DNA of 25,517 bases from a virus, in the IMG/VR virus record IMGVR_UViG_3300025138_000316, positions 1-25,517 of that record; one strand, 5' to 3'. This document shows, piece after piece, positions 6,102-24,493 of this stretch; position 1 is the first letter of the stretch, and the number at the start of each line of letters is the position of its first letter. A program made the translations under genes and the position numbers. The notes under the pieces are model-generated. The model saw only the letters and a program-made list of their open reading frames with translations, searched no databases and was not told the origin of the DNA.

Positions 6102-7655
6102 ATGGGCATTGAACAGATATTAGTACCTCTTTTAGGCGGTGCAGCAAAAGGCTTTGTTGCTAGACAAGATGATCTCCGCAAAGAGTACCGTGTAAAGAAA
6201 GATCGCCAGAAAGCTTGGGCAGATGCTAATGGCAGGAAAATAATGGCTGACTTAGAGGCTAAGTCTGACTTTGTGTTAAACGCTGGTGAGTCTTTAGAGA
6301 ATGCTGGCCTTGCGACAGAAAACGTAAAGTACATAGTTGATACCTATGGAACAAATGCTTTAATAAAACTAAAAGAGCAAGTAGATAAACTGGGTATTAG
6401 TGAGCTAGAGGCATTAAAGGTTGCATCTACTGATGGAAAAGGCGGCTTGAATACTGTTATTAAAATGTCAAACGAATATGAACCTGATGATACAACATGG
6501 GCAGAGACTGTAGTAAAAGATTTTCAAGTCAATCAGATTTCTGATAAAGATGCACCTGATAGACCTAAAGGCTTCCTAGCTAATCTTAGATACCAGATGT
6601 CAGGTGGCTCTTTTGAAGATGAACATGATGAATGGATGAATGAAGATTTCATTACAGATTCAAGGGGTCAAGGTGTTTCCATAAGAGAGCTTAGAGCAGC
6701 GCCTTTAGGTAGACCTTCACGTGGTACTGTAGCTAACTTTGATTTGACTGCTTTGGACGAGAGTGAAGGTATTTCTAGGAAAGATCAACAGCAATGGAGA
6801 TTAGCCACAACATCAATCTTAGATTATGCTAGAAATGCTCTAAGTAACGACCCAACGTTAATGGATGCACTTACTAGTGATATTGATGGACAGCGTGTGT
6901 CTGCTGCTGATCAATTATCAAATCTAAAGAATAAGCCAGAGCTAAAAGAGGTATTTGATGATGCCTTAAATGATGTAAACAAAGCTATACCTTTAAGCGG
7001 TAATACTGCAGCAGAACTGTATTTAAGGAATTATGATGGGGCTTTCGGGGGTATTCTTAATCCTATCTCACCAGAAGAACAGGAACAAGCACTATTAGCT
7101 GACCTAGAAGAGAACAATTTAAAAAGAGAAGATATAGCTGAAGTTGCTACAGAAGCAGAAGGTATAAAACACTTCAAGGACCATAACGTAGATTACGTTA
7201 TAGTAGATGGTGAGTTAAGGAAGCGTGATGTAGATAATCTTTTTGATCCTAAAAAAGCTGTGCCAGTAGAGGATAAATCTTTAGTTAAAGCTAGAGAAGA
7301 TCAAGCAGAACGATTATTAGAAATAGAAAAACTACCTGATGTAGAACCTTTTCCAGAAGGCTCTGATGCTAGGGCATATATGAATCAAAGGGAGTGGAAT
7401 ATAAATAATAAAGGCCGTTACAATAAAGAGGGAAAAGTAATTGCAGCACCTAAATATCCAACTAATGAAACAGAAATGAAACTTCTTTTTGGGCCTCCTT
7501 GGAATTTACCTAAAACTAGAAGAGGTACAGGTATGAATTCAACAAAAGTAGAGCGTACATTGGAAGAATTACAAAACTATTGGATAAAAACATACGGTGA
7601 GACTCATGATAAGCTTACAGGCTTTCCTACTATTGTAGATCAGGAGCCTGAATAA
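6102..7655 (+). CDS. Putative internal virion protein, 517 residues
   Basis: Starts three bases after the previous stop, with GAGGAG inside that gene's end as its ribosome-binding site. The first 50 residues include a hydrophobic start (IEQILVPLLGGAAKGFVA) followed by a basic helix (RQDDLRKEYRVKKDRQKAW). The rest is charged, mostly helical and without transmembrane segments or recognisable catalytic motifs. The C-terminus includes KLLFGPPWNLPKTRRGTG. The last base of its TAA is the first base of the next ATG (TAATG), so it is translationally coupled to the 1203-residue protein. Size and place resemble T7 gp15, an ejected internal core protein. Equivalence is by position only. Confidence 0.6.
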   Translation: MGIEQILVPLLGGAAKGFVARQDDLRKEYRVKKDRQKAWADANGRKIMADLEAKSDFVLNAGESLENAGLATENVKYIVDTYGTNALIKLKEQVDKLGISELEALKVASTDGKGGLNTVIKMSNEYEPDDTTWAETVVKDFQVNQISDKDAPDRPKGFLANLRYQMSGGSFEDEHDEWMNEDFITDSRGQGVSIRELRAAPLGRPSRGTVANFDLTALDESEGISRKDQQQWRLATTSILDYARNALSNDPTLMDALTSDIDGQRVSAADQLSNLKNKPELKEVFDDALNDVNKAIPLSGNTAAELYLRNYDGAFGGILNPISPEEQEQALLADLEENNLKREDIAEVATEAEGIKHFKDHNVDYVIVDGELRKRDVDNLFDPKKAVPVEDKSLVKAREDQAERLLEIEKLPDVEPFPEGSDARAYMNQREWNINNKGRYNKEGKVIAAPKYPTNETEMKLLFGPPWNLPKTRRGTGMNSTKVERTLEELQNYWIKTYGETHDKLTGFPTIVDQEPE

Positions 7656-10600
7656 TGAGAACACTTTCATATAAAGAGGATGACACTCTTGCTGCCTTAG
7701 AGTATACTGGCGGGGAAGAAGGAACCTTTGGTTTAAGTGACCTCACTGAAGATCACAACTACAAAGTCATAGAAGATCAGATGAGCCGCAGGTTTGGCAT
7801 GAGTGAGAAGTCTCACACCAGACAGGAGGTAGTTGACAAGTACATAAATTACATGCGTAACTTCAACTCAGGTAATAGTATTAGTATCTTGACAGAGACC
7901 TCTTATCTCAATGAGGCTGATGATGAAAAGAAGGTAGCAGCTTTTAATGCCTATAAACTTTGGGATAGCTCCAAGGGTGCTTTTGATGGTGGAACAGCAG
8001 GCCAGAAACTTGACAGTGTATTTGACTACGCTAGGTCTTTGGTAGCTGACCCTATTAACCTTGTAGGCTTTGGTGCAGGTAAGCTGGCTTCTGGTAGTGC
8101 TGCTAAGATTACAACTACAGCAGCTAAGAAGGCACTAGAGCTTTCTGTAAATCGTATACTTAAGAAAAACAATCTTGCCTTTAACACACCTCGCTCTCAG
8201 CTAACTCCTAAAGTCATTGCAGCTATAGATCAAGACCGTAACCGTATCCTGACTAAAGCCCTGCGTGGTGATGCGTTAGAGATAGCTGAAGATACATTTG
8301 ATGAAACTGCCATAGCTAAAACTGCTGCTTTAGGTATAGCAAAAGCAGGTCAAAAAGGTCTTAAAGTAGGATTTGGTACAGATGCGGTTGCAAGTGTCAC
8401 TATTGACTCTATTCAACAGAATGCTTTGATGGGTGTAGGCTTTCAGGATGAGTTTAGTTATCTTAATGCCCCCCTGATAGCTGGCATAGGTTTCTTTGGC
8501 TATAAGCTGGCAGGCGCTGCCCCTTTCTTGTCTGGCAGGGATGGGCTATTGCCTCAGTCTGTAGCCTTTGATCTTTTTGATCACACAGCTATGGCAGAGG
8601 CTGGATTTAAGAAAAGGATAAGAGAAGAGGGCGTTAAAACTAATAAAGAACGTCTAGCTGAATTGATGAAAGACACAGAAAAACAAGAAGCACTAGCCCA
8701 GCTTGCAAAGACAAACAATGAGGCTGCTGAACGTTGGGCTGAGAAAGTACGCTTAGGTACAGCTTCAGGTGCAGGTAAACCTGCTGACCTCAATGATGTA
8801 GAAGGTTTGAAAGGCTTCTTGTTAGGTAACGAAACAGGGGATGAGGCTACACACTTTGATGGGCTATCTCAAATCTTTGAGAAGGCGGGTCTTGAGCTAC
8901 AGTTTGAAGAAGGCTCTTTTGTTCACTTAACTGACTTTATTACTGAGACTGTAAAGGTAATGGATAAGGACAGCATAGTTAAAAAAGAGATTGAAAACCT
9001 GTATGACATAACTCTTAAAAAGCTAGACAAGACTTTCAATGGTATAGAGTTTGGTGATGAGGCTATGAATACTCTTGCAGCTAAATCTAGTGATGCAGGT
9101 AGACGTATGCAAGTCTTTTCTCAGTTAGCTAAAACTGGTGAGGAGATTATGAAGCGTAAAGTATTACTTGGAGAGGAACGTGTAGTAACCCCTATGGAGA
9201 TACTAGACGATGAACTAGCACCAGCTACGAAAGACCTCAGAGATTACTTTAATGATAAACAAAACGGCTTCCAAGCTAACTTTATTAAGACCTTAGTTAC
9301 TCATCCCGGCACTACAGCGTTGAACTTGTTAGGCTGGGCGCAGGCTAGTGTAATGCAGTCTGGTAGTGATTTGGTTCGTGGTACACTTTACGGAACCAGA
9401 GCTTTAGGTGATTACGTTATGGGTAACAAGACTAGTGCTGTTGAGTATGCATCCCTTGCTAAACATATGCTGACGTTACAGGGGCAAAAGATAAAGAACT
9501 TAATTAACCCTTTTGCTACACAGCAAGAGACACTTAACTTCTTATCCCAAAACCCTAAACTACAGAAAGACCTTTTTCGTTATGTGTCAGGTGGTGTAGA
9601 GAGTAAGGATGTAGCAAGAGACTTAGGTATAAGTGTTGATGACTTAGAGAAACCGGGAATGTTTGAGAAGTACATTGATACATTTCAGACCCTATACGGT
9701 GTTAAGGCTGTAGACATTACCTCCAAGACACAGGAGTTTATGTACAATATAGATAAGCAGATGCGTTTAAAGTACAACCTTTCCTATAATGACTTTATGG
9801 GTCAGACTGTAGATGTTTTAGACTCCAAGGGTGCTAAGGTTCTGGAAGAAGGGACTTCTCAAGTTAAACAAGAGCCTAAACACTGGCAACTAATGAATGG
9901 TAATGATTTCTTTGAAGTACAAACCAAAGCCTTAGACGATACGTTGCGTACTGTATTCTCTAAGTCCTACGGTGGGGGCGACTTCAATGCCAATCGTGGA
10001 GCAGTAGAGAGTGTAGCAAAGATAATTGAGGATGCTCGTAAGATTCCCGGCGTTGGTGCTATGATCCCGTTTGGTCAGTTCTTTAATAACACTATTGCGT
10101 TTATGTCAGATCACGTAGGCATAACATATGCTCACAAATTCTTTACTAAGTCAGACAGAGACATCATGGAGTTACACACCAAGTTTGCTACAGGTATGGT
10201 TTTGGTTAAACTTAATATGGAGTTTGAGTATAAGAACATGGAAGAAGGCTTGGCTTGGCATCAGGAACGTGACTCTGATGGGCAGGTAAGGTCAAGACTA
10301 TATGACTTCCCGTTCAGCTTCTGGAAGGGTATAGGTCGTATGGCAGCACACGTAAAACGTGATGGAGAAATACCTAAAGAACTTTTTGAAGACATAACTA
10401 AGACTTTTGGCCCTGCTAACTTGACGAGAACTTTAGGTGATACTGCAAAGGGTATCAGTGATATGTTTGAAAATGCTGCTATTGGTAACACTCCTGAACT
10501 TTTAGACTTCCTTGAGAAGTCACTAGGGGGAACAGCCGCTTTGTATGCTTCTGGTTTCACTAGACCCCTAGACCCTTTTAATCAAATTGCTGCTATGGCT

Positions 10601-11266
10601 ATGGGTGACGCCTATAACGAGAAAGACCGTAAGATAGGCAACAGGGCTATCAACAACAGTGTGCGTTACGTTGAGAGCATATATGATAGCTTAGAGATGG
10701 TAGTCATGGGAGAGGATGAGAAAGCTTTCTCCAAGCAAAGTGCTGTAGAGGAAGGCTCAAGAGGCGTACCTATCGGGCGTATCTTTGGCTACAGGGCAGA
10801 GGCTGCACCTAATGCCGTTACTAGAATGTTTGCTGATATGGGCAGACCTAACTGGAAGGCTGGCATTAAATCGGCTGTACCTGAAGCTGACAACAGGATC
10901 AACTCCGTTATAACTAAATACTTGGATGAGTACGCTGAGAGGATTCTGGATGATCCTAAATGGAAAGATATGAGCCAAGAAGTAAAACGTAGTACCTACA
11001 CAAAAAGAGTTCTTGCCCCTTCTAAAAAGAGAGCTTTACGTGAGCTTTACCGAACAGGCAATACTGATGACAGACGATACAGGCTGATTTATAAGTTAAG
11101 TAAAAGAGGTAGTGACGTTAAAATGCTTGACATGGAAAGGGCTTTAAAAGAACTAGGTATAGACAAAGAGGTGGCTGACCTGTCTTACAGAGAGCTAATA
11201 ACTCTACGTAGTTTTTTACGAAAAGAAGCTAGAGATGCTAAAAGAGAAGTTAGACGTGCAGGATAA
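7655..11266 (+). CDS. Large internal virion (DNA ejection) protein, 1203 residues
   Basis: The largest gene and the last of the late run. The protein is mainly helical. It has a glycine-rich amphipathic stretch near residue 130 (ADPINLVGFGAGKLASGSAA), a hydrophobic stretch near residue 275 (LNAPLIAGIGFFGYKLAGAAPF), and a second one near residue 555 (HPGTTALNLLGWAQASVMQ). The C-terminus is strongly charged (KEARDAKREVRRAG). No peptidoglycan hydrolase or protease motif was recognised, although T7 gp16, of similar length (about 1300 residues), carries a transglycosylase at its N-terminus. Here that activity is in the separate 298-residue protein. Size, late position and alternating hydrophobic segments support an ejected protein that spans the periplasm or inner membrane during genome entry. 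Transcription is expected to stop at the hairpin seven bases after the stop codon. Confidence 0.65.
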   Translation: MRTLSYKEDDTLAALEYTGGEEGTFGLSDLTEDHNYKVIEDQMSRRFGMSEKSHTRQEVVDKYINYMRNFNSGNSISILTETSYLNEADDEKKVAAFNAYKLWDSSKGAFDGGTAGQKLDSVFDYARSLVADPINLVGFGAGKLASGSAAKITTTAAKKALELSVNRILKKNNLAFNTPRSQLTPKVIAAIDQDRNRILTKALRGDALEIAEDTFDETAIAKTAALGIAKAGQKGLKVGFGTDAVASVTIDSIQQNALMGVGFQDEFSYLNAPLIAGIGFFGYKLAGAAPFLSGRDGLLPQSVAFDLFDHTAMAEAGFKKRIREEGVKTNKERLAELMKDTEKQEALAQLAKTNNEAAERWAEKVRLGTASGAGKPADLNDVEGLKGFLLGNETGDEATHFDGLSQIFEKAGLELQFEEGSFVHLTDFITETVKVMDKDSIVKKEIENLYDITLKKLDKTFNGIEFGDEAMNTLAAKSSDAGRRMQVFSQLAKTGEEIMKRKVLLGEERVVTPMEILDDELAPATKDLRDYFNDKQNGFQANFIKTLVTHPGTTALNLLGWAQASVMQSGSDLVRGTLYGTRALGDYVMGNKTSAVEYASLAKHMLTLQGQKIKNLINPFATQQETLNFLSQNPKLQKDLFRYVSGGVESKDVARDLGISVDDLEKPGMFEKYIDTFQTLYGVKAVDITSKTQEFMYNIDKQMRLKYNLSYNDFMGQTVDVLDSKGAKVLEEGTSQVKQEPKHWQLMNGNDFFEVQTKALDDTLRTVFSKSYGGGDFNANRGAVESVAKIIEDARKIPGVGAMIPFGQFFNNTIAFMSDHVGITYAHKFFTKSDRDIMELHTKFATGMVLVKLNMEFEYKNMEEGLAWHQERDSDGQVRSRLYDFPFSFWKGIGRMAAHVKRDGEIPKELFEDITKTFGPANLTRTLGDTAKGISDMFENAAIGNTPELLDFLEKSLGGTAALYASGFTRPLDPFNQIAAMAMGDAYNEKDRKIGNRAINNSVRYVESIYDSLEMVVMGEDEKAFSKQSAVEEGSRGVPIGRIFGYRAEAAPNAVTRMFADMGRPNWKAGIKSAVPEADNRINSVITKYLDEYAERILDDPKWKDMSQEVKRSTYTKRVLAPSKKRALRELYRTGNTDDRRYRLIYKLSKRGSDVKMLDMERALKELGIDKEVADLSYRELITLRSFLRKEARDAKREVRRAG

Positions 11267-11272
11267 CAAAAA

Positions 11273-11297
11273 AGGGGCGGTCAAAGCGACTGCCCCT
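11273..11297. terminator. Bidirectional intrinsic terminator between convergent operons
   Basis: AGGGGCGGTC (11273-11282) pairs with GACTGCCCCT (11288-11297) around an AAAGC loop. The stem is ten base pairs with one G-T wobble. The plus strand is followed by TCTTCTTTT and the minus strand by a run of six T (AAAAAA at 11268-11273), so it can stop transcription from both sides. It lies between the two convergent gene blocks, exactly where such an element is expected. Confidence 0.9.
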
Positions 11298-11304
11298 CTT
11301 CTTT

Positions 11305-11320
11305 TGTTTCACGTGAAACA
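11305..11320. other. parS: Perfect parS palindrome (ParB-binding, centromere-like site)
   Basis: TGTTTCACGTGAAACA is a perfect 16-bp palindrome and is identical to the consensus chromosomal parS (TGTTNCACGTGAAACA) bound by ParB across most bacteria. It lies eight bases beyond the terminator stem and just outside the 3' end of a small minus-strand gene, in the only spacer between the two convergent operons. No parA or parB gene is in the window, so the likely reader is host ParB, or a phage ParB encoded elsewhere. An alternative reading is a weak second terminator (six-base stem, ACGT loop, followed by TTTACTTT). The exact match argues for parS. Confidence 0.8.
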
Positions 11321-11321
11321 T

Positions 11322-11525
11322 TTACTTTATACCGTGTAACTCAGAGCAGTACTTAGCCCAAAGGTATACTTCTCTTATGCGTTGTTCAATCATCTTGCGT
11401 TCATAACAAGGAGCCAAGCTAGAGATTACAAGGTTCTCTACGTCTTCACATATATCTGATATCTTTTCAACAAAGATTGCCTCTTTACCTTTACTGTAGT
11501 TAATTGCTTCTTCTTCCAAGTTCAT
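11322..11525 (-). CDS. Small protein of unknown function next to parS, 67 residues
   Basis: The chosen start is the ATG at 11525 with AAAGGGG seven bases upstream. A longer form from a TTG at 11585 would add 20 residues and overlap the endonuclease VII stop, but it lacks a comparable RBS and would run through a good promoter candidate. The protein (MNLEEEAINYSKGKEAIF...) is helical, with two cysteines in the middle (C25, C40) and one near the end. It ends IREVYLWAKYCSELHGIK. No family was recognised and no DNA-binding motif is evident. It is the last gene before the terminator, so its own promoter would make a short monocistronic RNA. Being beside parS is suggestive but not evidence of a link. 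Confidence 0.6.
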   Translation of the reverse strand: MNLEEEAINYSKGKEAIFVEKISDICEDVENLVISSLAPCYERKMIEQRIREVYLWAKYCSELHGIK

Positions 11526-11558
11526 TGTACCTACCCCTTTATTATTTACAATATATAC

Positions 11559-11585
11559 TTTATAGGTAGCAAGTAGCTTTGTCAA
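11559..11585 (-). promoter_or_regulatory. Sigma-70-like promoter for the 67-residue gene
   Basis: On the minus strand a perfect -35 box TTGACA (11585-11580) is followed after 15 bases by TATAAA (11564-11559), with TATAT sequence just after. A 15-base spacer is shorter than the optimal 17, and a shifted -10 is possible. It lies 35-60 bases upstream of the 67-residue gene and overlaps the end of the endonuclease VII gene. Confidence 0.45.
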
Positions 11586-11998
11586 GACTTTTGTAGGTGT
11601 CTTTTAAGATACTCATGTGCTTTTCCTACTCTGTTTATATCGTCTTTTAATGCTCCTAGTCCTGTATTACAATTACTACAAAGCCAGCCTCTAAATTCTT
11701 CTGTTTTATGACAGTGATCTAAATTCCAGCCTTGTAGTTTAGGCTGGCCCTTTCTTGCAACCTCTTCTAGTGTACGTTCACAAATAGGGCATCTATAGTA
11801 TTCATCAGGGTAAGCATTCGTAGACTTTAAGTGCTTTAAAATTGATGAATGTTTTTGTTTACACTTCTTACACTTTCTTTTTATTTCTCCTGACGGCATA
11901 CTTTGAAATTCTTCTACAGGCTTTATAATACCACAGTCATTGCACTCAAGTCCGTCTGTAATCTCTTGCTGTATTATTTCAAAGAGTTCTAGTTGCAT
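11582..11998 (-). CDS. Recombination endonuclease VII-like Holliday junction nuclease
   Basis: A 138-residue protein. The C-terminal 70 residues carry the T4 endonuclease VII signature: C70-x2-C73, LDHCHKTEEFRG (D94, H95 and H97 in a His-Me finger), C107-x2-C110 and CNTGLGALKDDINRV. The four cysteines bind zinc and the DHCH segment holds the catalytic metal. An extra N-terminal zinc ribbon is visible (C19-x2-C22, C43-x2-C46), common in phage relatives. The enzyme cleaves Holliday junctions and branched DNA, which is needed before packaging. Its ATG shares a base with the upstream TAA (TAATG). A second, unrelated junction nuclease (endonuclease I-like, 15280-15726) is also present. Confidence 0.88.
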   Translation of the reverse strand: MQLELFEIIQQEITDGLECNDCGIIKPVEEFQSMPSGEIKRKCKKCKQKHSSILKHLKSTNAYPDEYYRCPICERTLEEVARKGQPKLQGWNLDHCHKTEEFRGWLCSNCNTGLGALKDDINRVGKAHEYLKRHLQKS

Positions 11999-12208: not shown

Positions 12209-14131
12209 TTAGGTTATATCCACCATCTCGCAGACATCACCAGTACACGCCATAGTTTGCATACCTGACGTATTATCTGTTTGTTCATAGGATGAAAGTT
12301 TACTCCAATCAATATTATCAGGTGACTTAGCTACCATGCCAAGATATTCTGTATCAGTACATTCTTGATAAGGTGCTTGCTGATACGTATGCTCATTGAA
12401 GGGTAAGAAAGATACACCAGACATCTCATCAAAGTGTTTGTATACAAAGGCTCCTACCTCAAGCCACTCATCAGACTTAACGTTAATAGTTACACTAGGC
12501 TTATGCTCACACCAATGACGTTGATACATTAGCCACATCTCTAGCTGCTCTAGTGCAGTCATGTCAGCGGTATGAACAGCATTATCTGGTGACTGCATAG
12601 GAAAGCTGAACACAGTAGTTTGATCAGGCTTCATTACGTCAGGCTCAGAAGGGACACCTTGATCAATCATAAACTGTGTCAGTGGGTCTTTGTTATCGCC
12701 TCGTACAGTTCGTATGTAATAAGGAGAGTGACGAGCATGAATCCCAGACGCACTATCCACCAACTGTGAGACAGTTCCCGATGGCTTAATGCAACTAATA
12801 GCAGTTGCGACAGGTATACCAAGGCGATCAGCCCACTCAGCATTAGTAGAAACAGCAACATCTTTTAAGTACTCCAATGTATCCTCTAGTCCACTATTAG
12901 CCATTGTCATCAGTGGGTTATCCATTATCCCTGTGAGTGACACACCAAGCAGTCTCTCAGCGGATGTGTTCGTCTGCCACACTTTACGCAGATAGGGGAA
13001 GTGTGTGTAGGTTGATTGAATAGTTCCAAGGATAGTTGCAACTCTGACTTTACGTGCAATATCTTCCAGACCATCTGGCGCACGGATGACAACCTCTGAG
13101 AGATTGCAGAACTGATTCGGGCGTAAAATGATTTCCGAACATGGGTTGGTCCCGAACTCATAGCAAGACTCTCTACGGCCATTTTTTGCAGCTTGTTTAA
13201 CCGATGCCTCTCTATTAAATATACCTCTTTCACCACTACCACTCTCCATCAAAGAAGTCCACTCACGCATAAATGCAATACTGTCAGGCTTCTCTGAATA
13301 CGACACAGAGTTATTAGCCAATGCACGGTGTGGTGCATTCTCCCACCAGTTGCCTGACTTAGCGTGACGCATACGGTCATCACTAAGGTTACTCAAAGAG
13401 ATCATAGCACTACGGCGTACACCACCAACGACTACTACTTCTCCTATCTTACACATCAAGTCATGACATTCAACAGATGAAAGTTTACGCCCTGATGCAC
13501 CTCTGAAAGTATTTACAGCAAACATAAACAGATCAACCAAAGGTGCAGGACCAGAGGCTCTACCACCAAACGTTTTAAGCCTAGCACCTGCAGGACGAAC
13601 CCTGCTTACATCCCACTTAGGTACTTCACCAGCCCACAGGAGAGCCAGCACTTGACGCAGACCTTTAGCCCAACCTTCCTTAGAGTCCTTGATGACAACC
13701 GTAGTCTCACTATCAAACAAGGTTGGTACATCAGGGAGCTTACTGATGAACTGACGCTCAACACTGAAACCAACCCCCGTACCACAGAGCAGGATGAACA
13801 TAGCCTCATCAAAGGACTTAAGATCATCTACGGGTAGGTAGCTACAATTATACATACAAGTATTATCACGTATACTAGCCTTACCTGCTGTCATCATTGA
13901 TCTCATACTAGGCATTACCTGTAGTGACAAAAGATGATGACGGATCAAGTCAATCTCAGAGTTATGACCATTACTATTGTCATCCTCTAATAGGGGTTTT
14001 ACAATGTTGTCAATGTAACGCTCAACAGTTTCACTCCAAGTTTCACGTCTTCCCTCTTTGTCTAGCCATCGTGCGTAGCGGCTGGTAGCAATGAAGGTCT
14101 GGTAGTCTGTGGGTAGGTAATTGTTTTTCAT
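12209..14131 (-). CDS. nrdJ: Adenosylcobalamin-dependent ribonucleotide reductase, class II, monomeric RTPR type
   Basis: A 640-residue enzyme that reduces ribonucleotides to deoxyribonucleotides with coenzyme B12. The key residues can be placed. NPCSEI holds the radical cysteine C331 and general base E333. C342 lies 11 residues on, as in the Lactobacillus enzyme (C408 and C419). The partner of C342 is probably C96 in CMYNCSY. A C-terminal shuttle pair C629-x4-C634 (ACTGDVCEM) has the same spacing as in that enzyme. FILLCGTGVGFS and GVRRSAMISL are typical core segments. It is about 100 residues shorter than the roughly 740-residue bacterial enzyme. Using B12 suggests a host that makes or takes up cobalamin and an oxygen-independent activity. 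The leader TAAAGGAAGACACATGA is repeated at another gene (15710-15910). Confidence 0.93.
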   Translation of the reverse strand: MKNNYLPTDYQTFIATSRYARWLDKEGRRETWSETVERYIDNIVKPLLEDDNSNGHNSEIDLIRHHLLSLQVMPSMRSMMTAGKASIRDNTCMYNCSYLPVDDLKSFDEAMFILLCGTGVGFSVERQFISKLPDVPTLFDSETTVVIKDSKEGWAKGLRQVLALLWAGEVPKWDVSRVRPAGARLKTFGGRASGPAPLVDLFMFAVNTFRGASGRKLSSVECHDLMCKIGEVVVVGGVRRSAMISLSNLSDDRMRHAKSGNWWENAPHRALANNSVSYSEKPDSIAFMREWTSLMESGSGERGIFNREASVKQAAKNGRRESCYEFGTNPCSEIILRPNQFCNLSEVVIRAPDGLEDIARKVRVATILGTIQSTYTHFPYLRKVWQTNTSAERLLGVSLTGIMDNPLMTMANSGLEDTLEYLKDVAVSTNAEWADRLGIPVATAISCIKPSGTVSQLVDSASGIHARHSPYYIRTVRGDNKDPLTQFMIDQGVPSEPDVMKPDQTTVFSFPMQSPDNAVHTADMTALEQLEMWLMYQRHWCEHKPSVTINVKSDEWLEVGAFVYKHFDEMSGVSFLPFNEHTYQQAPYQECTDTEYLGMVAKSPDNIDWSKLSSYEQTDNTSGMQTMACTGDVCEMVDIT

Positions 14132-16794: not shown

Positions 16795-17682
16795 TTAATA
16801 AGGAGCCTCTTCTACTTGAACGATAGCATCCAAGATAACTGGATCAATAGCAACGTCAGGCTTGTTTAGACGCTTCCACTCACTCAGTACGTAATCATTA
16901 GCCCTATCAATGTAGTCCATAAAGTCTCTTGCTAGTTCCTGATCTCCTGATTTCATGGCTGACTTGCTGCCTAATGAGGCTACAACAACAGCATACTTAT
17001 TACCAGAAGGAAGCTTTTCTTTGCGTGACCCTAGTACAATGGTATGTTCAATAGGCAAAAGCCTCATAGCTGAAATTTCATCTAATGAAGCAGCCAAAGA
17101 CTTCTTACTATCATTGTTCTTCAAATCAAAGACAAAAGAAGTCTCCTTATCATAACCCTTTACATTATTACCTTTTGCGTCTACTGCCTTACCTAAGATT
17201 ACTTTACCAAAGATAACCTGAGTATTCTTTACAGTACGTAAGACTTCCTTAGTCTTATCGTCTATTGAATCCCAATCTGGAACGTACTTACTAGGGCGAT
17301 TTAAGTTAAACGTACCACGTGTATCCTTGTGTTCTCCTTTAATTACACCCCTTATAGTCTGAACCATTAAGCTCTTGTGCATCTTGCCCTCTGTTGTATC
17401 CCACTGAGTCCACTGGTGACGGTGAGCAAACAGACGAACAGTAATAGAACGGCTGTACACCTCATTACCTTCAGCATCTTTAAGCTTAAAGGCCCCAAGA
17501 GGTACAATTACCTTCTCTTCTAGTTCACCATCTTCATCTACAACCTCATGCATAATAGGCGCTTGCATCTGTGTCAGACGTGCAAGGTTAGGGCCAGAGG
17601 GTGCTGGCTCTCCTGCCCCACCAAAACCCATAAGTGCTGCCAAGTCTGACCCAGCAAAATTAGTACTCAACTCATTGCTCAT
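16795..17682 (-). CDS. Candidate single-stranded DNA-binding protein, 295 residues
   Basis: No firm motif was recognised, so the function is inferred from context. The protein has a low-complexity start (TNFAGSDLAALMGFGGAGEPAPSGP), a middle with alternating beta-like segments (RSITVRLFAHRHQWTQWDT, SLMVQTIRGVIKGE, TQVIFGKVILGKAV, YAVVVASLG) with many basic and aromatic residues, as in OB-fold SSBs, and a helical C-terminal part ending DAIVQVEEAPY, mildly acidic. Phage SSBs often end in an acidic tail, but this one is weak. It lies between polymerase and exonuclease, where T7 and related phages place ssDNA-binding or annealing proteins. RBS AAAGGAT. A recombination annealing protein paired with the exonuclease is another possibility. 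Confidence 0.45.
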   Translation of the reverse strand: MSNELSTNFAGSDLAALMGFGGAGEPAPSGPNLARLTQMQAPIMHEVVDEDGELEEKVIVPLGAFKLKDAEGNEVYSRSITVRLFAHRHQWTQWDTTEGKMHKSLMVQTIRGVIKGEHKDTRGTFNLNRPSKYVPDWDSIDDKTKEVLRTVKNTQVIFGKVILGKAVDAKGNNVKGYDKETSFVFDLKNNDSKKSLAASLDEISAMRLLPIEHTIVLGSRKEKLPSGNKYAVVVASLGSKSAMKSGDQELARDFMDYIDRANDYVLSEWKRLNKPDVAIDPVILDAIVQVEEAPY

Positions 17683-23327: not shown

Positions 23328-23570
23328 TTAATTGCCCATAATAATAGGCCGTATGGAGCAAAAGTTATAGGACACTCCATCTATTTCCCAATCATATGAT
23401 CCGTCTACAGATAAATCTATTTGATCATGCCCGTCTTTTTCATATGACCAAAACTCTATGCGGTCATGGAATGTTTCAGCAAAGTCAGTCTTTATTATTC
23501 TAAGATTAACAACTTCACCATCGTCATTAACTGCATCCCTTAGATGTATATACACATATTTACTTCTCAT
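23328..23570 (-). CDS. Small acidic protein, 80 residues, unknown function
   Basis: The ATG overlaps the recombinase stop (ATGA). The protein begins MRSKYVYIHLRDAVNDDGEVVNLRIIKTDF, continues with alternating strands and an aromatic-rich part (RIEFWSYEKDGHDQIDL, SYDWEIDGVSYNF) and ends IRPIIMGN. The pattern suggests an all-beta small domain. It lies between recombinase and primase and is not recognised. A recombination directionality factor would be small and near an integrase, but would normally be basic with a winged helix, which is not evident here. Confidence 0.6.
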   Translation of the reverse strand: MRSKYVYIHLRDAVNDDGEVVNLRIIKTDFAETFHDRIEFWSYEKDGHDQIDLSVDGSYDWEIDGVSYNFCSIRPIIMGN

Positions 23571-24493
23571 ATCAAGTCATCCTTTCTGTTAGATAGTGCC
23601 TTAGTAGCACCTGCCAGTGTGTTGACCAAGTAAGGTGTGACACTCTGAGGACTAGCGTGACCACTAACCTGCATGATACCCACCACATCAACACCACGCT
23701 CAACCATCTGTGTAATAGCTGTACGCCGTAAGTCCATAGCTGTCAAGCTAGTAGGCAAACCAGCCTCTTCTTTAACTTCATTGACTAAGCCACATATCTC
23801 ATGATCCTCATAGGGTGTGTATGCACCTGCTCTAGGCTCCACTCTAGGGGTGACATAGGGCTGGAACCCAAAGTCTTCTTTCTGCTGCTTGAGCATATCA
23901 ACCAAGCCGCCTTGTATAGGTAAGAATACACTCTCTCCACGCTTGCTTTGTTCTAGCTCCAACTGATTGCTATCTAGATCTAGGCTAGTCCAAGGAAGCA
24001 TACGCATGTCACCTACACGCTGCGCCCAGTGAAACGCCATGTGTACAATCAAGCCAATGCTACGCCACCGCCACTGATTGTAAGCAGTGTCAAGGAATAG
24101 TCTGACTTGAGGTGTAGTCCACTTGATTTTACGAGGCTTGGCTTTCTTGCGCTTGATAAGTGATACAGGATTACTCACCATAGCCTCATGCCTGATTGCT
24201 GTATTGATGACAATGCTAAGGCAAGTAGACATATAGTTAGCACTACGCACCCCATGATTTACCAGCCAGAAGTCATATGCAAAAGTAACATGCTTAAAAC
24301 GTATATCTTTTAGCTTGATGCCACCTAGCATACGTCCTGACTGTACTGTAGTAAGGCAAACAGCCTTTAGCTTTCTTTCGTAGTCGTACTGTGATTTGCC
24401 ACCTATAGCTGCGAAAGAAGGTGTACGCATGTATAAGTCACACGCCTTGCGTAGTGCATCTGTGTTCTTCATTTCAACAGCTTTAGTTGCCAT
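23567..24493 (-). CDS. int: Tyrosine recombinase / integrase
   Basis: A 308-residue protein with an N-terminal SAM-like core-binding part (residues 1-115) and a catalytic domain. Catalytic residues: R159 (WAQRVGDMRML), K184 (EQSKRGES), R256 (MDLRRTAIT), H279 (VSGHAS) and the nucleophile Y288 (TPYLV). The family's first histidine (HxLR) is M253 here, so the set is R-K-M-R-H-Y; substitutions at this position occur in active members. RBS AAGGAG eight bases before ATG. It is embedded in the early operon next to primase instead of at the end of a lysogeny module. No repressor and no recognisable att site or tRNA fragment was seen. It may integrate the phage or resolve genome multimers. Confidence 0.9.
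   Translation of the reverse strand: MATKAVEMKNTDALRKACDLYMRTPSFAAIGGKSQYDYERKLKAVCLTTVQSGRMLGGIKLKDIRFKHVTFAYDFWLVNHGVRSANYMSTCLSIVINTAIRHEAMVSNPVSLIKRKKAKPRKIKWTTPQVRLFLDTAYNQWRWRSIGLIVHMAFHWAQRVGDMRMLPWTSLDLDSNQLELEQSKRGESVFLPIQGGLVDMLKQQKEDFGFQPYVTPRVEPRAGAYTPYEDHEICGLVNEVKEEAGLPTSLTAMDLRRTAITQMVERGVDVVGIMQVSGHASPQSVTPYLVNTLAGATKALSNRKDDLI

Follow-up and report, generated by a model that had tools for sequence, protein, structure and literature searches.

An apparent host-type centromere site in a clade of marine phages without recognizable partition genes

Introduction

What role could an exact copy of the bacterial chromosomal centromere, parS, play between two phage operons? The site was found in the window, i.e. 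the whole 25.5-kb virus record that was analysed, which belongs to the HMO-2011-type podovirus group, marine phages that have been called dominant and widely distributed (accessible part of PMC9038755). ParB in general uses parS as its loading site; once loaded, it closes with CTP and goes on to spread (PMC12704722, available in part). The earlier note on this DNA had proposed that the phage borrows the ParB of its host. Our verdict, as far as sequence comparison alone can carry it, is that a clade of marine phages appears to carry a host centromere with no partition genes found, that this centromere is kept by selection, and that in relatives one copy lies inside a gene.

Genomic context of the site

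Around the junction of the two operons, the gene content and order of HMO-2011-type phages are met (ribonucleotide reductase (RNR), MazG, endonuclease I, DNA polymerase A and a large structural protein), and the gene order resembles that of the Roseobacter phages CRP-9, CRP-207 and CRP-603 in the stretches compared. The leftward operon encodes endonuclease VII, a B12-dependent RNR, a MazG-like pyrophosphohydrolase, endonuclease I and DNA polymerase A, as well as a DnaB-type helicase, ThyX, a primase and a tyrosine recombinase (Table 1). At the DNA level, the RNR region is about 66-74% identical to 20 phages among the matches listed, mostly Roseobacter phages. The 1203-aa protein encoded at the end of the rightward operon matches Roseobacter phage CRP-9 at 37% and has no PHROG match, and the 87-aa protein at the end of the leftward operon has neither a Pfam nor a PHROG match; a gene end resembling that of the 87-aa gene is visible, by eye, in several relatives that lack parS.

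Table 1. Coordinates of the parS site and of the other window features discussed in the text
Feature	Position	Strand	Basis or remark
parS palindrome TGTTTCACGTGAAACA	11305..11320	.	exact match; kept in relatives; same as Rhodobacterales sites
Intrinsic terminator hairpin between convergent operons	11273..11297	.	A-tract before, T-rich tail after
Last gene of rightward structural operon, 1203 aa, unknown function	7655..11266	+	ORF; marker for placing relatives
87-aa gene, unknown function, end of leftward replication operon	11322..11585	-	ORF; stop codon adjoins parS
Endonuclease VII, leftward operon	11582..11998	-	PF02945, phrog_2633
B12-dependent ribonucleotide reductase, leftward operon	12209..14131	-	PF21995, PF02867
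Tyrosine recombinase (integrase), bears on lifestyle	23567..24493	-	PF00589, phrog_1

The operons converge on a spacer (11266-11322) in which TGTTTCACGTGAAACA, a perfect 16-bp palindrome, matches canonical chromosomal parS at 16/16 positions; it lies between the terminator hairpin and the stop codon of the minus-strand 87-aa gene, one base from the latter. The terminator scan gave two terminator-like sites in 1 kb (shuffle mean 0.6), the folding z of the terminator stretch with its flanks is about -5 on both strands, and either strand of the parS palindrome is itself able to form a 6-bp stem with a 4-nt loop. CtrA-type sites (TTAA-N7-TTAA) are absent from the window.

The flawless palindrome that the earlier note had reported between convergent operons is exact, and its view that a chance match is very unlikely is borne out: this is the sole parS match in the window even when up to three mismatches are allowed, a laxity at which shuffled sequences give a mean of 0.11, and the exact site recurs in all 18 close relatives (see below). 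A chance origin is ruled out by the shuffles, by a control palindrome in viral contigs and by the pattern at the junction (18/18 versus 0/63 loci). Contamination of the window with host DNA is likewise ruled out; parS sits between phage genes in 18 relatives.

Conservation at the junction

Relatives were collected via the 1203-aa protein (the best 80 of 468 in viral contigs), and the junction was compared in 81 loci, leaving out L126, L127 and L296, which end before it. Within this sample, the exact 16-mer is present at the junction in 18 of 18 loci with 48-100% identity in the 1203-aa protein, and absent from the junction in 63 of 63 loci at or below 42% identity. These 63 loci contain no match elsewhere at up to one mismatch; one distant match with two mismatches was seen in a single locus. 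Most of the relatives without parS still have a terminator hairpin at the junction, as judged by eye.

In an alignment of the junction comprising the window and 14 relatives (168 columns; L122, L125, L272 and L278 not included), parS falls within a block of 25 invariant columns, the only run of at least 16 invariant columns among the 15 sequences, and the terminator loop and the spacer drift. The palindrome is thus kept at the same spot while its flanks vary, a check that the earlier note had proposed. In L272 and L278, about 480 bases separate the upstream gene from parS, yet parS is kept. The terminator region is replaced there by some 480 bases of other sequence (after 9696 in L272 and after 3443 in L278), which perhaps represent an HNH-type gene, a guess from reading the sequence.

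A quick maximum-likelihood tree was built from 51 near-complete proteins (47 loci, the window and three isolates), with several long branches flagged. Fifteen of its members have parS and 36 do not, a distribution for which a single change suffices, on a branch with a support of 100; path lengths within the parS-bearing clade reach up to about 0.98 changes per column from the window. The simplest history would be one gain at the junction, followed by unchanged retention in every clade member seen. Whole-record scans of 15 related isolates, including 11 Roseobacter phages, gave no exact parS (CRP-603 has one match with two mismatches), and because related isolates lack the exact site, it must be dispensable for phages of this kind.

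Additional copies and their placement

In one relative, G001 (57,846 bases), 112 bases of the start recur at the end, and the alignment with the window runs through the point where the two ends meet, so that the map of G001 appears to be closed and complete. The search for further copies suggested by the earlier note yielded two in this genome, which has three exact parS sites: at 48059 (the site of the window), at 10394 in a divergent spacer and at 17064 in frame within the terminase gene terL. They are spaced 6.7, 31 and 20 kb around the 57.7-kb map. The window corresponds to about 37.9-57.7 kb and 0.1-5.8 kb of this map; it has a single copy and lacks the part in which the other two would lie. 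The remaining 17 clade records, all of them shorter and fragments, have one parS each.

The terL copy was followed in the best 80 of 600 terminase relatives. It is present in 10 of 10 sequences (G001 and nine loci at 90% or more terminase identity), exact in four and at 15/16 in six, and absent from the other 71 loci at or below 85% identity among these best 80 (L436, without the linker, is uninformative). The site encodes VSRET in a linker, with the codons GTT TCA CGT GAA ACA identical in all ten, and the residues and codons around VSRET vary. In the terL body (400 codons), 208 of 329 comparable codons (63%) vary synonymously, and conserved five-codon runs without synonymous change make up 9 of 325 windows. 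Since such invariant runs occur elsewhere, the codon constancy of VSRET alone is modest evidence; it is the drifting linker that makes it telling. The criterion that selection acts on the DNA itself and not on its context can be regarded as met: the site is invariant in 15 junctions, it is kept despite the insert in L272 and L278, and its codons are fixed in a drifting terL linker.

Upstream of terL, L375 and L376 carry two more exact parS sites; L094, whose terL is about 79% identical and which falls outside the closest terminase clade, has one in a divergent spacer (L094:6750). In L375 (3344-3415), the divergent-spacer site lies 28 bases downstream of a promoter-like match. A location away from promoters, which the earlier note had considered fitting for a loading site, thus does not hold as a rule, given the copies in divergent spacers and inside terL.

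Partition proteins and the likely host

Neither ParB_N (PF02195) nor the ParA-type AAA_31 (PF13614) was matched in the 19 clade records, G001 included, with control genomes positive for both. Only these two models were searched and the records besides G001 are fragments; a phage-encoded ParB or ParA is rejected to the extent that no PF02195 or PF13614 match exists, which leaves room for a divergent protein. A ParB profile built from just two sequences gave no match on the first 120 parS loci, but the profile is weak and the loci are partial, and it was not relied on. The absence of par genes from the window that the earlier note had remarked on therefore holds for these two models, and extends to the closed map of G001.

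The phage host is inferred to be of Rhodobacterales type from the kinship with Roseobacter phages, and is not shown. For this group, 12 loci were picked from the 80 listed, and 11 genomes were examined. Nine of the 11 Rhodobacterales genomes have the exact 16-mer, eight of them in two exact copies about 1.9 kb apart; all four Planktomarina genomes have it, three as an exact pair. The other two of the 11, both metagenome-assembled genomes (MAGs) by title, have no parS match at up to two mismatches, and a reversed control word gave 0-3 matches per genome at the same laxity. In both regions inspected, the parS copies adjoin parA and parB, and one of these host ParBs aligns along most of its length with ParB chains of known structure, 6t1f among them (E 9e-74). 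The phage site is thus identical to parS sites in nine of 11 genomes of the likely host group, the host itself being only inferred; the objection foreseen in the earlier note, that the parS of the host might differ, is not borne out in these nine genomes.

The chromosomal sites of Rhodobacterales resemble the phage site in having the same 16 bp and in including gene-start copies, one in the VSRET frame as in phage terL. They differ in lying near parAB and being read by the ParB of the same genome, whereas the phage parS resides in genomes without a ParB_N match. The Planktomarina and Lentibacter copies (L360, L361) are both at the starts of protein genes, in the frames FHVKH and VSRET; these two genes are presumably mnmG and rsmG. 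Tolerance of coding is thus a trait that chromosomal parS has in common with the copy in phage terL.

Function and alternative explanations

We consider it probable, without binding data, that the phage site is a pirated bacterial centromere, on which host ParB loads and thereby couples phage DNA to the ParABS and SMC machinery of the host. That parS has some function depending on host ParB, whichever it may be, is held with equal or slightly greater confidence; ParB binding, spreading and benefit are inferred. The core inference of the earlier note is in this sense supported, by computational checks only. The proposed sequence of events is as follows: The phage parS would be recognised by host ParB, not by a phage-encoded protein. 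ParB would load there as a CTP-dependent clamp and spread over the adjoining phage DNA, and the phage genome may then be handled by host ParA and SMC and, in alphaproteobacteria, probably by MipZ and polar factors. The benefit under selection would most likely be that phage genomes are positioned and apportioned when host cells grow slowly or divide; the chief competing benefit, which would probably also arise as a side effect, is a disturbed segregation and division of the host once the phage copies exceed the few parS sites of the host. We rank segregation or positioning of phage DNA first, with about half of the weight within a host-ParB function, and sabotage of the host second, with about a third; promoter control and SMC-mediated compaction come after these and, together with silencing, take up the remainder.

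Studies in Caulobacter provide a guide to what additional sites might do (all from the available excerpts of PMC5815017): (i) ParB is reported to spread over at most 2 kb around individual parS sites; (ii) viability drops about 1000-fold when a plasmid carries a strong parS, and two strong sites on one plasmid are reported to be lethal; (iii) this toxicity is attributed to plasmids being segregated in place of chromosomes; (iv) extra chromosomal parS sites disturb ParB and MipZ foci; and (v) the cost of extra parS in an integrated state could depend on position. Judged by the toxicity of parS in Caulobacter, a replicating phage with several sites should both ride and drain the host machinery. 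An extrachromosomal or lytic state is inferred despite the integrase gene, which would permit integration, because an integrated prophage with multiple parS sites may be costly in a position-dependent manner.

The alternative that survives best, sabotage as the sole purpose, appears possible but rather unlikely, and is counted inside the preferred explanation. It holds that the sites titrate host ParB (with ParA, MipZ and SMC) off the host origin and thus block segregation or division, the segregation of the phage being irrelevant. The complete relative G001 would confront usually two exact sites per host genome with three of its own, multiplied by phage replication, and the toxicity of plasmid-borne parS as well as the disturbed MipZ foci in Caulobacter point in the same direction (excerpts of PMC5815017). 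However, titration alone requires no spread-out copies, and those of G001 are many kilobases apart. Moreover, the parS of the element SGI1 both stabilises the element and destabilises its rival, so that the two effects need not be separate (PMC10954446, as far as available).

Distinctly less favoured is a regulatory role, in which ParB at parS, via host ParB or its CTP state, would silence or time early phage promoters, forming a switch for deferment akin to the CtrA or Spo0A sites of other phages. Such a switch would suit the divergent-spacer copies of G001, L375 and L094, in particular that of L375 with its nearby promoter-like match, and host CtrA has been proposed to act in lytic deferment in alphaproteobacterial phages (accessible portion of PMC9437464). 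It suits the other copies less well: that of the window lies at a convergent terminator, and that of terL sits within a late gene. Furthermore, scanning for promoters gave no promoter-like match at the divergent-spacer site of G001, and the matches in L375 are no more numerous than in shuffles (2 versus a mean of 3.1).

That the palindrome is merely an RNA hairpin or part of a bidirectional terminator, protecting or ending the converging transcripts and resembling parS by coincidence, is very improbable. It does abut the terminator and can form the stem-loop described above on either strand, but an RNA stem would tolerate compensatory changes, and all 16 bases are unchanged in the window and 14 relatives. 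In addition, relatives without parS mostly keep the terminator hairpin (by eye), the 16-mer recurs in terL coding sequence and in a divergent spacer, and the control palindrome is far rarer in viral contigs. As a main role, a hairpin or terminator was rejected on the basis of the relatives that have the hairpin without parS, the invariant alignment and the folding results.

It was judged similarly unlikely that proteins of the phage itself act at the palindrome, be it the tyrosine recombinase at an attP-type recombination site or replication proteins at a replication-associated site: short palindromes can serve as recombinase or origin motifs and the window encodes such a recombinase, but three copies per genome as in G001, one of them in terL, would by inference invite self-recombination, parS is missing from relatives including HMO-2011 and the CRP isolates, and the 16-mer or a 15/16 version is found in unrelated phages, including an inovirus and Bacillus phages.

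Precedents and significance

The idea of a borrowed ParB is not without precedent, as the available parts of PMC9437464 (phi29 and Spo0J) and PMC10954446 (SGI1) attest. Host Spo0J is reported to trap phi29 DNA in spores (Meijer et al. 2005, as cited in PMC9437464), a genuine earlier case of host ParB serving a phage; novelty cannot be claimed for the principle. The phi29 genome (NC_011048; record W20, here L566) has four copies of TGTTCCACGTGAAACA in 19 kb, each matching the window site at 15/16 positions; the copy at 17243 comes immediately after gene 16, where converging genes meet, next to terminators annotated on both strands. A host-type parS in a phage without ParB is thus a criterion that both the clade and phi29 meet: phi29 likewise has no ParB_N match and relies on host ParB, and one of its sites is placed beside terminators between convergent genes as in the window. 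It differs in its sporulating Gram-positive host, its 19-kb genome, the spore as destination and its 15/16 sites; the window phage has likely non-sporulating marine alphaproteobacterial hosts, the exact 16-mer and, in relatives, a copy in the terminase linker.

SGI1 hijacks the parABS of IncC plasmids: it mimics the plasmid parS, gains stability and destabilises the owner of the system (excerpts of PMC10954446). The two cases are alike in that an element exploiting the ParAB of another replicon carries the parS of that replicon, and unlike in that SGI1 has a plasmid as victim, a plasmid-type parS and an added small protein, Sci, whereas the phage mimics a site of the host chromosome.

Phage-plasmids with their own ParABS are also known, namely P1, N15 and the cluster A mycobacteriophages. 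They, too, partition phage DNA by means of a centromere, but they encode the partition proteins, none of which were found in this clade; the criteria for a self-encoded ParABS (parB and a parA-type ATPase in the same replicon) are not met in the 19 records.

New aspects appear to be the clade of alphaproteobacterial phages, the copy embedded in a gene and how broadly such sites occur. Among the entries listed from the open-access literature, which excludes preprints and subscription papers, none dealt with this site in HMO-2011-type phages, with a parS located in a terminase gene or with host-type parS being a trait of phages in general. The portions available of PMC10197239, PMC12416852, PMC13190303 and PMC10294663 do not mention natural parS in phages, and a word search of the accessible text of PMC7022226 returned no mention of phage. 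If the pirated-centromere reading is true, lytic or plasmid-like phages would use a host centromere system in trans; the location of phage DNA in the cell, the inheritance of infection and a cause of host division failure would become predictable; and ParB, perhaps with SMC and MipZ, would be a host infection factor in this marine phage group. The single precedent of phi29 would then be linked to what may be a common strategy, for which culturable pairs are at hand (Ruegeria pomeroyi DSS-3 with DSS3P8, and B. subtilis with phi29).

Occurrence in other phages

The exact 16-mer is present in at least 120 viral-contig stretches of IMG/VR, compared with 20 for one palindrome of the same composition. 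A 19-mer around parS likewise occurs in at least 120 stretches, and in 21 of the 120 parS stretches among the matches listed. Among these listed matches, and excluding sites less than 150 bases from an end, parS is intergenic in 69 cases and coding in 63 (control: 6 and 13). A total of 348 phage records match the 19-base probe over at least 16 bases, versus four for a single control word. The 348 include matches to only 16-18 of the 19 bases, 27 records with a mismatch and short contigs. In Microbacterium and Listeria P100-type phages, the matches seem to reflect a single site for each phage group, frequently within genes; the Listeria LM 4-11-1/4-14-1 pieces are fragments without annotation, and they may include host DNA. 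Because the counts are redundant and only one control word was used, 348 versus four overstates the number of independent cases.

Of 50 hand-picked parS-bearing viral records, mostly carriers of the 19-mer, 48 have no ParB_N match. Two or more parS sites at up to one mismatch occur in 17 of 50 hand-picked, mostly longer records scanned whole, and in none of the 50 for the reversed control. Seven hand-picked whole isolate records were without a ParB_N match: (i) Roseobacter phage DSS3P8 (host Ruegeria pomeroyi DSS-3; KT870145), with three exact sites within about 6 kb across the record start (L562 100000-146135 and position 841); (ii) Lactobacillus phage LpeD, with two sites; (iii) Bacillus phage vB_BcoS-136, with four; (iv) Butyrivibrio phage Arian, with three; (v) the rodent-faeces inovirus bajarodino virus 3 (L567, PQ006097), with six exact sites in 6.2 kb; (vi) phi29; and (vii) Pseudomonas phage Amme-3, with one site at 15/16. 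We regard the odds as even that centromere piracy is a widespread and overlooked strategy. On this view, exact host-type parS would have been acquired time and again by unrelated phages of ParABS hosts, in many cases in several copies per genome and even within genes; these phages would have no ParB of their own and leave the handling of their DNA to host ParB and SMC.

Dense arrays were also seen: L016 and L043 have five exact parS sites within about 1 kb, and G065 (the record of L475) has seven within about 8 kb when one mismatch is allowed; these may be plasmid-like centromeres or host DNA.
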